DNA of 35,461 nt. Origin: Omnitrophica bacterium GWA2_41_15 (GTDB lineage: Bacteria > Omnitrophota > Gorgyraeia > Gygaellales > Profunditerraquicolaceae). Positions 1,531 through 35,456 of the stretch are shown piece after piece. A program made the translations under genes and the position numbers. The stretch is from contig CAKKQZ010000029.1 of assembly GCA_919902445.1 (NCBI GenBank), positions 1-35,461 of the forward strand, written 5' to 3'. The notes under the pieces were generated by a model that did no database searches, was not told the origin of the DNA, and was given only the letters and a program-made list of their open reading frames with translations. Position 1 is the first letter of the stretch; each line of letters opens with the position of its first letter.

Positions 1531-3093
1531 TCATCCCTGATTCTCTTCAAACGCGCTGCATCCTTTCCTTGCTTTAAAATCAAAAACATGGCCCAACACC
1601 TGCTTTGCGGCCCGCAATGAATATTTCAAATCATCGATATCCTTCATTGCTGATATTTTCCTTAAGATAAACTCCGGCTGAAAAGAAACCTTGTACATCT
1701 TCCGGACTAATCCCATTAACTTTTCATCAGTAATCGGCGAGCGCATTACCGGCTGTTTCATATCGTAATCATCCCAGTCAATGGACTTAAGCCACCCGTT
1801 ATCTTTGCATTCTTTAAAAAGCCGGCTTCCCGGATAAGGAATCACAATAGTTGCCTGCATGGTATAGGCATAACCTTTCTTAAGGAGCCAGCTCCCGAGT
1901 TTAAGAGTATTGAGAGCGCTTTCGTAGGATTCCCAGGGGTATCCGAACATTATAGTGATGTGCGGAAAAAGCCCTGCTTTTACAGCACAGATACAATCCT
2001 GAATAATCCTGTCTTCAGTTACGTTTTTATTTATCCTGTCAAGGGTATTTTGATTTGCCGATTCCAATCCGAATAAAAGGAGGCGAAAATTAGCTTTCTT
2101 CATCAAAGAAAAATCTTCGTCCGACAAGGCGCCAAAGCGCATATTGCAGTCTAAGTATATCTTTTTATTAATACCGCGCTTGATAGCCCCCTTACAAAAA
2201 TCCCTTAACCACTCCCCAACGCTAAAGCATCCGCTATCATCCATTATTTCGCGAACATTATACTTATCGATTAGTTCACCTATTTCATCTAAAACATTCT
2301 CAACGCTTCTTGCCCTGAATTTAGGGTAAAGTGTAGGCCAGGAACAGAATGTACAAGCATGATACCAGCAGTCGCGTGAAGACATAATATAAGTTCCGGG
2401 CGTGCGTTTATAATTTCCGTTCTTAAAAGCATAGGACTGCCAACCGGTCAATTCCCTGTCTATAAAGGGGAGTGAATTCAAATCGTGATTGAGTTGGAAT
2501 TCTCCCGTATTCTTTATTCCTCCGTTTTCGCGATACCATATCCCAGGCTCTAAATTGCCAAGGTTTGGCTCTTTTAACTCATTACAGAGATTTAATAATA
2601 AAAAGTCATAATCTCCTCCAGTTAAAACAAAATCCACTTTAGAGTTTTGAAAAGATTCTTCCGGTAGCGCGCTTACATGGTCGCCGAATAAAACAGTCTT
2701 AGGGACTGTCCAATTACTCTCTTCAGGGACAGTCCCTCTTGTTATGCAATTAAGAGCTCTGACGGGGACAGTCCCTGCGCTCGGGAAGAGACTTTTTATT
2801 TCATTAATTATTTTCCAGTGCTGCTTAATTACCGGTGTTTTTGTTTCAAAAGCGATTAGGTCCGGCTTTTCTTTACGGATAAAATCCAAAAACTGTTGAT
2901 AATTCCATCCTTGCGCAAGGCAATCATTCCAGATAACTTCATGGCCAGCCTCATTTAAAAGCGTGGCTGCCTGGGCAGGGACAACCGGATAAATAAAAGT
3001 TGGCTTGTTAAAATACTGAAACTGCCTGTTCTGCCCGAGAGTCGGGCATCCTTTTTCGCTATTTAATGGAGGATAGGATATAACTACCTTCAT
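1531..3093 (-). CDS. B12-binding-domain radical SAM protein
   Basis: N-terminal cobalamin-binding-like domain (GDHVSALPEES, VDFVLTGGDYDFLLLNL) and a radical SAM cluster motif (SSRDCWYHACTFCSWP). Contains an in-frame repeat insertion at about 2701-2775. Confidence 0.88.
   Translation of the reverse strand: MKVVISYPPLNSEKGCPTLGQNRQFQYFNKPTFIYPVVPAQAATLLNEAGHEVIWNDCLAQGWNYQQFLDFIRKEKPDLIAFETKTPVIKQHWKIINEIKSLFPSAGTVPVRALNCITRGTVPEESNWTVPKTVLFGDHVSALPEESFQNSKVDFVLTGGDYDFLLLNLCNELKEPNLGNLEPGIWYRENGGIKNTGEFQLNHDLNSLPFIDRELTGWQSYAFKNGNYKRTPGTYIMSSRDCWYHACTFCSWPTLYPKFRARSVENVLDEIGELIDKYNVREIMDDSGCFSVGEWLRDFCKGAIKRGINKKIYLDCNMRFGALSDEDFSLMKKANFRLLLFGLESANQNTLDRINKNVTEDRIIQDCICAVKAGLFPHITIMFGYPWESYESALNTLKLGSWLLKKGYAYTMQATIVIPYPGSRLFKECKDNGWLKSIDWDDYDMKQPVMRSPITDEKLMGLVRKMYKVSFQPEFILRKISAMKDIDDLKYSLRAAKQVLGHVFDFKARKGCSAFEENQG
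2697..2778. repeat. GGGACAGTCCC palindromic element, copy A (inside the radical SAM CDS)
   Basis: agggactgtcc...cagggacagtccctcttgt...aagagctctgacggggacagtccct. Shares the GGGACAGTCCC(T)CTT ... AGAGCTCTGACgGGGACAG core with the copies near 13693 and 35249. Confidence 0.85.
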
Positions 3094-4058
3094 AATTCCT
3101 CTTTGAGCTTCTTAGAGAGCAGCCCTTTTAAAAAAAGCAAACCATAAGCAATATGGCTTGATATTATACCAGAAAATACAAGAGGAATCAAACGTAACTC
3201 TTTAGAAATACTAAAGATAAAAACCAAATAAAGATAAAAGAATAGCGCTGATGAATAAACCATCTTTAAGGGAATGCAGAATAAAGACAAAGCGCCCCCA
3301 AACAAAAGGCCAAGTAAAAAAAGCGAAGGGATAAAATAAGAAACCTTAAAAGATGTCTCCGGGTACTTTTTTACAAAATAACCGCGATGAAGAGCGTAAT
3401 TTGCAATCTGTTTAAGATGGGGAGTAAAAACAGGCCTGCGGTGATGGTAGACTAGAACCTTTGGGTCATAGATTATTTTCTTTTTAAGTTTTTTCGTAAT
3501 ATCAAGGCAGAGCTTTGTATCTTCTCCCGGCCAAAAACTAGTATTAAACCCGCCTAAATCCTGCATAACTGATTTGCGCACCAGAAAATTACAACTGGGG
3601 AGATCATCCGCTTCTCTTTTTTTACCGGGTATATAACGGTAAATAAAATTACCGCTTACAAGGTAAGAAGAATATATTGCGCCACTTGCTTGCTGGCGCA
3701 AACTGTCATTAAAAGGGGTAACCGAAGGCCCTCCCACAGCAGCAACAGAATTATCCTCAAAATCTTCAATGGCGCACTTAAGCCAGTCTTTGGCAGGATA
3801 CGCATCATCGTCTATAAAAGCCAAAATTTCGCCTTTGGCATATTTCAAAGCTAAATCACGCTTATCCGCAGGACAAACATGCCCGGTGGGAAAAATACTT
3901 ACCCTGCCCGATGAACTCAACGGGTATTCTTTTTCTAAAGGTGCGTCCGGAAGAATTAAGATTTCAAAATCAGAATAATCCAGTTCCAGGCACTTACTTA
4001 CGCATTCTTCTAAATTCTTTTGCCAGGCCTTTACGGCGATAATAATCGATGTTGTCAT
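3090..4058 (-). CDS. Family 2 glycosyltransferase with C-terminal TM segments
   Basis: TSIIIAVKAWQKNLEECVSKCLELDYSDFEILI...GEILAFIDDDAYPAKDWL, a GT-A fold GT2 with a DDD motif. Confidence 0.88.
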   Translation of the reverse strand: MTTSIIIAVKAWQKNLEECVSKCLELDYSDFEILILPDAPLEKEYPLSSSGRVSIFPTGHVCPADKRDLALKYAKGEILAFIDDDAYPAKDWLKCAIEDFEDNSVAAVGGPSVTPFNDSLRQQASGAIYSSYLVSGNFIYRYIPGKKREADDLPSCNFLVRKSVMQDLGGFNTSFWPGEDTKLCLDITKKLKKKIIYDPKVLVYHHRRPVFTPHLKQIANYALHRGYFVKKYPETSFKVSYFIPSLFLLGLLFGGALSLFCIPLKMVYSSALFFYLYLVFIFSISKELRLIPLVFSGIISSHIAYGLLFLKGLLSKKLKEEL

Positions 4059-7364: not shown

Positions 7365-7439
7365 AGGGACGTTTCTTAACTTAGCTATAAGGTGTCCCCA
7401 ACTTGGGGACACCTTATATTCAGCTTGAGAAACGTCCCT
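7365..7439. repeat. Nested palindromic element in the rpsA-tyrS gap
   Basis: Outer arms AGGGACGTTTCT (7365-7376) and AGAAACGTCCCT (7428-7439). Inner 16-bp arms TATAAGGTGTCCCCAA (7386-7401) and TTGGGGACACCTTATA (7403-7418) around one central base. Confidence 0.9.
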
Positions 7440-13641: not shown

Positions 13642-13692
13642 TTAAGCATCTTTTTGGCTTAAAGCCGCAGTCAAACCATATCTATCTTGGTA

Positions 13693-13757
13693 GGGACAGT
13701 CCCCCTTAAACAGAACTCAAGAGCTCTGACGGGGACAGCCCCTACTGCAGTAGTTCT
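13693..13757. repeat. GGGACAGTCCC palindromic element, copy B (proB-proA gap)
   Basis: tagggacagtcccccttaaacagaactcaagagctctgacggggacagcccctactgcagtagttct. Aligns with copies A and C. Runs right up to the proB stop codon. Coordinates plus/minus 2 nt. Confidence 0.85.
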
Positions 13758-17917: not shown

Positions 17918-18009
17918 GCATTTAGTGACATCCCGCAGAACAGCTTTTTCTTCGCATTCATCATAAGTGCATGCGCGTGGTCTTCTGCGAAGGCGGGTTA
18001 AAACAATAG

Positions 18010-18059
18010 GGGGACACCCTTCCGATTGGTTCCAAGGGTGTCCCTAAAGGGTGTCCCTA
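18010..18059. repeat. GGGACACCC palindrome plus an extra half-site, just downstream of pilQ
   Basis: gggggacacccttccgattggttccaagggtgtccctaaagggtgtccctat: inverted repeat GGGACACCCTT/AAGGGTGTCCC with a further direct AAGGGTGTCCCTA. May double as the pilQ terminator hairpin. Coordinates plus/minus 2 nt. Confidence 0.75.
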
Positions 18060-19862
18060 TTTTTTCTTATTTTTAGAGACTGCGGCTTGCGAAGTGATAT
18101 TCACTGCCGCGGGGCTGCTAAACCTCTGTTCCAATTTTGCGATTTCCGCTTCGGTAAATTCACCTTCTTTTACTATATGCGCGGTGATAAATATTAAAAG
18201 GTCAACCTTTTGGGTATCAAATATCTCCCTTTTAAAAAGATTCCCTAAAATAGGAATTTTGCCTAAAAAAGGGATTCCGATTGTTTCTTTACTTTTTACG
18301 TCTTTAATCAAGCCGCCTAACACAATAGTTTCTCCGTCTTTCATCAATATCTGCGTCTGGGCTTCACGCACGTCAATTACGGGATAGTTTACCGTGCTGG
18401 TAATTGCGCTTGAGCCGGTACCTGCAACATTTGTAGCAGTGACATTTGAACTAGAAGAGGTAACGCTTGGATGGACAATCATATTTATGTAGCCTTCTTC
18501 GCTGACCTGCGGCACGACATTAAGCCGGATACCTATCTCCTGATAATAATCCAAGCTCTGTGTCTGCGTCGGTCCGGTAGTAGTACTGCCCGCAGTCACG
18601 GAAGATGTCAATATGGGGGTATGAAAACCCACCAAGATGGATGCCTCCTGGTTATCCAGGGTTAGAATCCTGGGAGCTGAAAGCGTATTTGTATGGGCAT
18701 CCTCTTCCAAGGCGTGCAAAATTACCTCAAATTGAGTGCCTCCCAGCTTTTTAAATAATATTTCCATCCCTGCCTTGTAAGGATATGTCCCGGGAAAAGT
18801 AGTAGTTCCTTCGATAGGGTTGAATTTACCGGGTGTAAATTCAGACGCGAGATTCCTCCCTGCCAGGGTTTTGGTATTTTTTGCGTTCAGGCCTATATCT
18901 GTAGGTGCTGTAGTTGACCCTGAAGCGCCACCCGTACCGCTACCCCAGTCAAAACCGATATCCTTTAACCTATCCAGGTTAACCTCCATAATCTTTGTTT
19001 CAATCAATACCTGTTTTGGTTTTTTATCTACCTGCGGAAGGATAACGTTGCGTATGCTATCCAGTGAAGCCGTAGTATCGGTGATAATCAAGGTTTTGGA
19101 TTTAATCGAGGGTTGAAATTCTGCTTTTTTAGAAACAACGTCTCCTGCAGCATTTCTTTCAATGGAAATTGTTTCTCCTTTTATCGCATCTTGCTGTTCA
19201 CCTTGTAATGCAGTACTCGTAGTCGTTTCTTTTCCTATCTTAAATGTGCCAAACTGCCATCCTTTCTGGCCGCGTGCATACAATACTGAAATTTTACCCC
19301 GCGGAGAAAGTAAAGGTATAAGGATCTTCTGGGCATCCTGCGCATCCAAAAACTTAAGGGTAAAAATTTCCGTCTGCAGCGACTCCTCAGCCGCTATTTT
19401 AGAGATATTCTCAAGCTTCGTAACTAAAATAATATTCCCCTGTTTCTGATAAGCAAATCCGTATGTTTTTAAAATCATGTCTAATGCCGTATCCCAGGGT
19501 ACATCCATAAGCCGGATAGTAACATTCCCCACTACATCGGGAGTAGTAACAATGTTTACTCCGGATTTATAGGAAATAATCTTAAGTACGTTTTGTATAT
19601 CGGCTTCCTTGAAATCCAGAGTAACATTTGTGGCTGCTAAAAAATTTTCCGTATTTTCTGCGCCTTCCTTAGCCTCTTCAACCGGTTGCTCTTTTGGCTT
19701 TTCAACTAAAGGCGCGGGTTCCCGTTGTAACGGCTTAACCGAAGACGGCTTTTCATCTGTTAGCGCCTGCTTATTATTATTCTGGGCTAATGAATAAGAA
19801 TAAGGAATAAGCATAATTAAGGAAACAAAGATTAAAAAATTAATCTTTCTTAAGCTTTTCAC
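18057..19862 (-). CDS. pilQ: Type IV pilus secretin
   Basis: N-terminal NVTLDFKEADIQNVLKIISYKSGVNIVTTPDVVGNVTIRLMDVPWDTALDMIL (STN-like); secretin core VVPQVSEEGYINMIVHPSV..; GETIVLGGLIKDVKSKETIGIPFLGKIPILGNLFK. Confidence 0.95.
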   Translation of the reverse strand: MKSLRKINFLIFVSLIMLIPYSYSLAQNNNKQALTDEKPSSVKPLQREPAPLVEKPKEQPVEEAKEGAENTENFLAATNVTLDFKEADIQNVLKIISYKSGVNIVTTPDVVGNVTIRLMDVPWDTALDMILKTYGFAYQKQGNIILVTKLENISKIAAEESLQTEIFTLKFLDAQDAQKILIPLLSPRGKISVLYARGQKGWQFGTFKIGKETTTSTALQGEQQDAIKGETISIERNAAGDVVSKKAEFQPSIKSKTLIITDTTASLDSIRNVILPQVDKKPKQVLIETKIMEVNLDRLKDIGFDWGSGTGGASGSTTAPTDIGLNAKNTKTLAGRNLASEFTPGKFNPIEGTTTFPGTYPYKAGMEILFKKLGGTQFEVILHALEEDAHTNTLSAPRILTLDNQEASILVGFHTPILTSSVTAGSTTTGPTQTQSLDYYQEIGIRLNVVPQVSEEGYINMIVHPSVTSSSSNVTATNVAGTGSSAITSTVNYPVIDVREAQTQILMKDGETIVLGGLIKDVKSKETIGIPFLGKIPILGNLFKREIFDTQKVDLLIFITAHIVKEGEFTEAEIAKLEQRFSSPAAVNITSQAAVSKNKKK

Positions 19863-28699: not shown

Positions 28700-28812
28700 T
28701 GAACTTCTCCCGCTGTACCTTAGTAAAGCAAGAGGCGGGATTAATTCGCGCAAATAACTTATGTTCGTAACGAGCGTAAGCGAGTACTCCATAAGTTATG
28801 CGCTCATTAAAA
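28700..28812 (+). repeat. 113-bp structured dispersed repeat, left copy
   Basis: Reads as the reverse complement of 35344-35456 with 4 mismatches and no gaps by my hand alignment; internal stems CCCGC/GCGGG and ATAACTTATG/CATAAGTTAT. Confidence 0.92.
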
Positions 28813-35184: not shown

Positions 35185-35248
35185 AATATCTCCTTTTCTC
35201 GCCTTTACCTTCTTTTGGCTTTTCTTGCGGTCAAGCCTTATCTCGCTA

Positions 35249-35315
35249 GGTAGGGACAGTCCCTCTTGTCAGATAGGTCTTAGCTTTGACAGTGACAGTC
35301 CCTACTGCAATAGTT
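35249..35315. repeat. GGGACAGTCCC palindromic element, copy C (intergenic)
   Basis: ggtagggacagtccctcttgtcagataggtcttagctttgacagtgacagtccctactgcaatagttt aligns with copy B across its length, including the ggtaggg and ctactgca ends. Confidence 0.85.
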
Positions 35316-35343: not shown

Positions 35344-35456
35344 TTTTAATGAGCGCATAACTTATGGAGTACTCGCTTACGCTCGTTACGAACATAAGTT
35401 ATCTGCGCGAATTAATCCCGCATCCTGCTTTCCTAAGGTACAGCGGGAGAAGTTCA
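35344..35456 (-). repeat. 113-bp structured dispersed repeat, right copy (inverted relative to 28700-28812)
   Basis: ttttaatgagcgcataacttatggagtactcgcttacgctcgttacgaacataagttatctgcgcgaattaatcccgc...agttca is the reverse complement of 28700-28812 (109/113 identical by eye). Confidence 0.92.

Follow-up and report, generated by a model that had tools for sequence, protein, structure and literature searches.

In the 35,461-nucleotide stretch of DNA analysed here (the window), a gene for a cobalamin-type radical SAM enzyme very probably carries a copy of a REP/REPIN-like element, probably spread by a RAYT, that is read through as a disordered loop of a working enzyme. The element would consist of two GGGAC(T/A)GTCCC palindromes that form one hairpin and are often GTAG-tagged outside genes. 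Its most likely means of spread would be transposition of the RAYT type (Y1, HUH), and an in-frame copy would be transcribed and translated straight through, adding a disordered, presumably neutral, loop to an enzyme that keeps working. The features concerned are:

1531..3093, minus strand: gene for a cobalamin-type radical SAM enzyme, host of the insert (520 aa, unbroken translation)
2701..2776, minus strand: whole REP-derived in-frame segment (76 nt, amino acids 107-131), missing from most of 82 homologues
2725..2776, minus strand: young REPIN unit within the insert, with two GGGACTGTCCC arms 39 nt apart

The source genome (G000) is an Omnitrophota MAG of 1.29 Mb in 97 contigs with a completeness of 95%, and the titles of homologues and relatives also place the window in Candidatus Omnitrophota. 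The 520-residue protein matches Pfam Radical_SAM (E 1e-13), whilst HpnJ was its top match in an NCBIfam scan, with a score under the HpnJ cut-off. Its AlphaFold model (pTM 0.87) has a cobalamin-type radical SAM fold, and Foldseek matched this model to AprD4, MgmA, TsrM, and OxsB.

Residues 107-131 of the protein read GTVPVRALNCITRGTVPEESNWTVP and are bounded by INEIKSLFPSA and KTVLFGDHVSALPEES. The original prediction of an in-frame insert in a radical SAM open reading frame was borne out, as the 520-residue translation is unbroken and the peptide is found at these residues as described. The DNA of the segment contains palindromes at 2702-2712 (GGGACTGTCCA), 2726-2736, and 2765-2775. In the young REPIN unit, the outer A and T are present and the outer GTAG tags are absent; its RNA is predicted to fold into a hairpin of -20.7 kcal/mol (z -3.2). 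In the AlphaFold model, residues 106-126 are the only stretch besides the C-terminus with a pLDDT <50, and they sit between helix 86-102 and strand 132-136. According to the model, the insert is a disordered occupant of a helix-to-strand loop that is otherwise short, which answers the question, raised with the original prediction, of where in the structure it falls.

On both flanks of the insert, pN is about 0.14-0.20 vs. a pS of 0.70-0.85, and the radical SAM cysteines Cys242, Cys247, and Cys250 (CX4CX2C in this family) are retained. Judged by these substitution rates, the sequence flanking the insert is under purifying selection, and the possibility of a pseudogene, considered from the outset, is contradicted by both observations. 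More generally, the host genes with copies could be decaying pseudogenes or assembly errors, as might be suspected in a MAG in 97 contigs. This is scarcely credible, however, in view of the low pN/pS on both flanks and the conserved cysteines, the occurrence of copies in the single-copy genes valS and gatA, and the presence of similar inserts in the same loops of independent genomes.

The palindrome is abundant in the source genome, where exact GGGACWGTCCC was counted 118 times in 1.29 Mb as compared with once for a reversed control pattern. When up to two mismatches were allowed, 15 palindromes were seen in the window, whilst 3.8 were expected and the maximum in 100 shuffles was 9. Two relatives of the window unit are intergenic, i.e., those at 13692-13743 (81% identity over 52 nt) and at 35252-35303 (77% identity), and they are parts of the following copies:

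13667..13743, minus strand: intergenic REPIN, GTAG-tagged at either end (GTAGGGGCTGTCCCC...GGGGACTGTCCCTAC), flanked by two unrelated genes, both complete
35227..35303, minus strand: intergenic, GTAG-tagged REPIN copy, with similarity to the window unit

Together with the 118 genomic copies, these relatives substantiate the earlier claim that the inserted DNA is a dispersed repeat and not native coding sequence. The hairpin of the REPIN at 13667..13743 has a predicted energy of -34 kcal/mol (z -6.5), and the z scores of the folded copies range from -3.2 to -6.5. The repeat unit measures 50-53 nt, and copies overall span about 27-53 nt with 11-nt arms, which are open in all six frames and mostly spaced at 16-17 or 39-42 nt. 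Extragenic pairs are often GTAG-tagged at their outer ends (GCAGTAGGGACTGTCCC...GGGACTGTCCCTACC) and form one hairpin with a central mismatch, and in many long copies CGTC comes after the left arm but not after the right arm. As far as the sequence goes, such paired, hairpin-forming, and dispersed palindromes represent REPIN anatomy. The window also contains a 113-nt inverted repeat pair of a different family at 28700-28812 and 35344-35456, which is 96% complementary and 6.5 kb apart.

Copies inside other genes were sought in the stretches around the first 100 listed of the 118 palindromes and in the window, together 352 kb, which yielded 64 clusters. A cluster was considered to be in a gene when an open frame extended for at least 30 codons on either side of the repeat. 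Thirteen of the 64 sampled clusters were inside open frames, and all 13 were in frame without a stop, which provides the count of genic and intergenic copies proposed with the original prediction; two more spanning open frames, of 111 and 152 aa, were excluded as probably spurious. Besides the window gene, at least eleven other genes of this genome are hosts: dinB, an amrS-like radical SAM gene, an ABC-F ATPase gene, purL, gatA, valS (two sites), malQ, the gene for fumarase alpha, both of two PLD paralogues, and an unknown frame that a contig end truncates. Gene interiors make up roughly 71% of the sampled stretches but harbor 20% of the clusters; therefore, copies are strongly depleted in gene interiors. 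No gene split by a copy was found: around the other clusters, ~20 pairs of neighboring genes on the same strand were checked with Pfam, and none represents two halves of one gene; therefore, all in-gene copies are in frame. The GTAG tag was found in 0 of the 13 in-gene clusters (window copy included) vs. 25 of the 51 clusters elsewhere (Fisher p = 0.0009). GLSP is the commonest coding phase, and a GTAG tag there would give a TAG stop. The untagged in-gene copies may form a separate subclass, or the tag may have been lost since.

Conceivably, the protein lacks the insert that the DNA contains, either because the ribosome bypasses the hairpin, as happens in T4 gene 60 and at mitochondrial byp elements, or because the RNA is spliced. 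The strong hairpin (z -3.2 to -6.5) and the GGA with which the left arm begins in the GLSP frame would suit such a process. However, a skipped insert needs no frame, and a random insert is in frame in approximately one third of the cases, whereas the frame is kept, without a stop, in 13 of the 13 in-gene copies sampled, and no split gene was found. Since all sampled copies keep the frame although skipping would not require it, bypass or splicing is very improbable. Instead, from the sequence and the structural model, we strongly infer that the window segment is read straight into the protein as a tolerated loop, which is the simplest reading.

Empty sites are available for several of the other hosts. 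ValS and GatA each have one match in the source genome. Neither ValS insert is present in Thermus ValRS (1gax), and the inserts are also missing from several relatives, whilst the two PLD paralogues are mutual empty-site controls (WKKGD-CPHSGTVP-FLL vs. WKKGD-TFLL). At the insert sites, the native loop is short in many Omnitrophota ValS proteins and in almost all AmrS-like homologues, and in some genera these loops contain REP-coded peptides of their own, e.g., KGQSPKHNFDIAISGTVPY (G033) and KGLSPSGDESPQGTVPE (G028). Relative to the comparison sequences, GatA and fumarase differ little in net length, and the copies may for that reason replace a native loop rather than add to it. For PurL and MalQ, the PDB alignments stopped outside the insert region. 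A REP insert (LLLKGLSPSEASGTVPKVVVI) was also seen in G028 in a nucleotide-sugar epimerase-like Rossmann protein (L209:526-1491), where, by sequence, it has a helix-to-strand position.

Among 82 distinct homologues of the window protein, the loop at the window site usually measures 0-5 residues. The expectation that the flanks are nearly contiguous in homologues thus holds for most of the 82, but it fails for eight other distinct Omnitrophota homologues, which have shorter, KGLSP...GTVPK-like peptides in this loop, with recognizable REP arms in the DNA (e.g., AAGGGACAGTTCCCGTCAAGGCTAAATCAGAGTAACTTAAAGGGGACTGTCCCTAAA in L092). Because of these eight, the insert is not unique to the genome. A clean insertion of 25 residues found in this genome only, as had been anticipated, is not supported, since this loop is filled by older REP-coded inserts in several further genera, and the window copy is apparently nested in an older REP copy, of which two probable parts are recognized:

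2778..2796, minus strand: probable older-REP remnant, left half (AAAAGTCTCTTCCCGAGCG, codes KSLFPS), as suggested by alignment
2701..2724, minus strand: probable older-REP remnant, right half (GAAGAGAGTAATTGGACAGTCCCT, codes EESNWTVP), as suggested by alignment

The left half aligns with AAGGGACTGTCCCC (KGLSPS), in the same codons, in L053, L058, L092, and L136, and the right half matches AGAGTAACTT..GGGGACTGTCCCTAA of L092 and other relatives. When the inner REPIN is set aside, the rest of the window loop aligns with older copies (AGAGTAATT, GGACAGTCCCTAAG), and on this basis we consider the window segment the probable product of a young REPIN nesting within a decayed, older copy. In a tree of the 82 homologues, the REP-bearing rows are all within one 25-row clade, mixed with empty sites. 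The backbone of this clade lacks resolution, and one old insertion followed by losses fits as well as several insertions.

The recurrence of REP-coded peptides at this loop in several genera, with the open frame retained and with codons mostly in one phase (KGLSP...GTVPK), might indicate that the peptide was recruited for a function, e.g., in partner binding or regulation. Such an adaptive role is nevertheless quite unlikely: the sequence and length of the peptide vary freely between relatives, many relatives have no insert, unrelated repeat-derived inserts are found at the same loop in L064, L139, L085, and L125, and the insert is disordered in the AlphaFold model. In L064 (match 1766-3448), the loop has ~60 extra residues from a different palindromic repeat, VIPAQAGIQRGYDRMDARFHGHDK.

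If the copies are read through as tolerated loops, survival within a gene would depend on an intact, stop-free frame in combination with a surface loop that is permissive, and these constraints would explain why the same loops are occupied repeatedly across Omnitrophota. Tentatively, the repeated colonization of permissive loops in core enzymes by genome-specific repeats could be a lineage-wide feature of protein evolution in Omnitrophota rather than a set of scattered accidents, although the odds lean somewhat against it. The loops concerned would be the one in this radical SAM protein, the two in ValS, and those in the AmrS-like protein and GatA, and the colonizers would be REPs and GTCGAC-rich, GGSASGG-coding, and VIPAQAGIQ-coding repeats, whichever is active in a given genome. 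Other repeat-like peptides, including STVDRRPSTVD, PRLRSGQANDE, ANRQTGKPANRQT, and QLTAYSLQLPL, were observed in these loops of ValS and GatA in further Omnitrophota (L215, L224, L228, L250, L243, L245, and L255). In G030, DNA coding for STVDRRPSTVD is found in each of the two ValS loops and also on two contigs elsewhere.

Three Y1 transposases are encoded in the source genome; for two of them, an NCBIfam scan gave the REP-associated tyrosine transposase as the best match, with 73 bits vs. a cut-off of 80. The repeats that flank the Y1 transposases of this genome (TAGGGACGTTTC...GTGTCCCCA; TTAGGGACACCC...; AGGGACGTTCCC) have the AGGGAC/GTCCC style of ends in common with the REP but are otherwise different in sequence. 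GGGACWGTCCC was not found flanking a Y1 transposase, either at the three in G000, whose assembly is incomplete, or at others in relatives. Since no checked Y1 transposase has such flanks, mobilization by a RAYT is something we infer. Opposite double palindromes ~700 bp apart on contig 2 of G028 appeared transposon-like, but an ORF scan revealed no transposase-like frame between them. An intergenic, near-perfect palindrome of 75 bp at 7365-7439 of the window has halves that match the terminal repeats of the L016 Y1 transposase (AGGGACGTTTC...GTGTCCCCA) and looks like a miniature element of the L016 transposon. At 17999-18069, an inverted repeat (AGGGGGACACCCTT / AAGGGTGTCCCTA) resembles the hairpins flanking the L017 Y1 transposase.

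The lack of a well-described equivalent, as suggested when the insert was first noted, was not borne out, as comparable elements have been reported in other bacteria. According to a report from 2013, GTAG/CGTC-tagged intragenic REPs are in frame and code for 20-30 aa; their hosts include Opitutus terrae, Rickettsia, Thauera, Xanthomonas, and others, with the highest numbers in O. terrae and Rickettsia conorii, and the genes concerned include those for DNA polymerase, repair proteins, and tRNA synthetase (PMC3733652). Where such a REP adjoins genes, the GTAG end is often a TAG stop, and Y1 transposases flanked by TIRs with a common GGGGWSAS are described alongside (PMC3733652). The Omnitrophota elements are similar in being short, often paired palindromes, some in frame within conserved genes, and in the TIRs of the Y1 transposases, the L016 TIR having GGGGACAC vs. 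GGGGWSAS. They differ in their palindrome, in the lack of tags on in-gene copies, in that pairing with a RAYT of their own was not found, and in showing reoccupation of the same loop across genera as well as nesting. The phylum Omnitrophota is not among the hosts given in the sections consulted (PMC3733652), and a literature search revealed no reports on repeat insertions in Omnitrophota.

The likeness to Rickettsia palindromic elements that had been pointed out also stood up, as the insert is palindromic and in frame, the gene is otherwise intact, and the loop is disordered. The Rickettsia elements are in-frame palindromic repeats within conserved protein genes as well (Ogata 2000, 2002; PMC2229807, PMC10969869), and a guanylate kinase (gmk) bearing one was expressed and active (reviewed in PMC2229807). 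However, they measure 105-146 bp and appear unrelated in sequence, and the Omnitrophota unit of about 27-53 nt is set apart by its size and is not assigned to that family. With REPINs mobilized by RAYTs (PMC3116915), the Omnitrophota elements share the inverted REP pair, the single hairpin, the high copy number, and the presence of RAYT-like genes in the genome, but no RAYT flanked by the Omnitrophota REP was found and a sizeable fraction is intragenic.

Protein-coding palindromes, known in Rickettsia and a few other bacteria, are thus extended to Omnitrophota. Of added interest are their density in core genes, the reuse of loops by REPs and other repeats across genera, and the apparent nesting. 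The data set is unusually clear: essential single-copy genes harbor in-frame copies, both filled and empty sites are seen in related genera, and a young copy apparently lies within an old one. It can be used to test directly how selfish repeats make protein loops and which positions tolerate them. Annotators should regard the GTVP/GLSP-like peptides of these proteins as derived from repeats and not as functional motifs. An insert of another kind was seen at L048:2242-4995, where an RtcB RNA ligase gene with a LAGLIDADG-domain intein (918 aa) adjoins the gene for seryl-tRNA synthetase.
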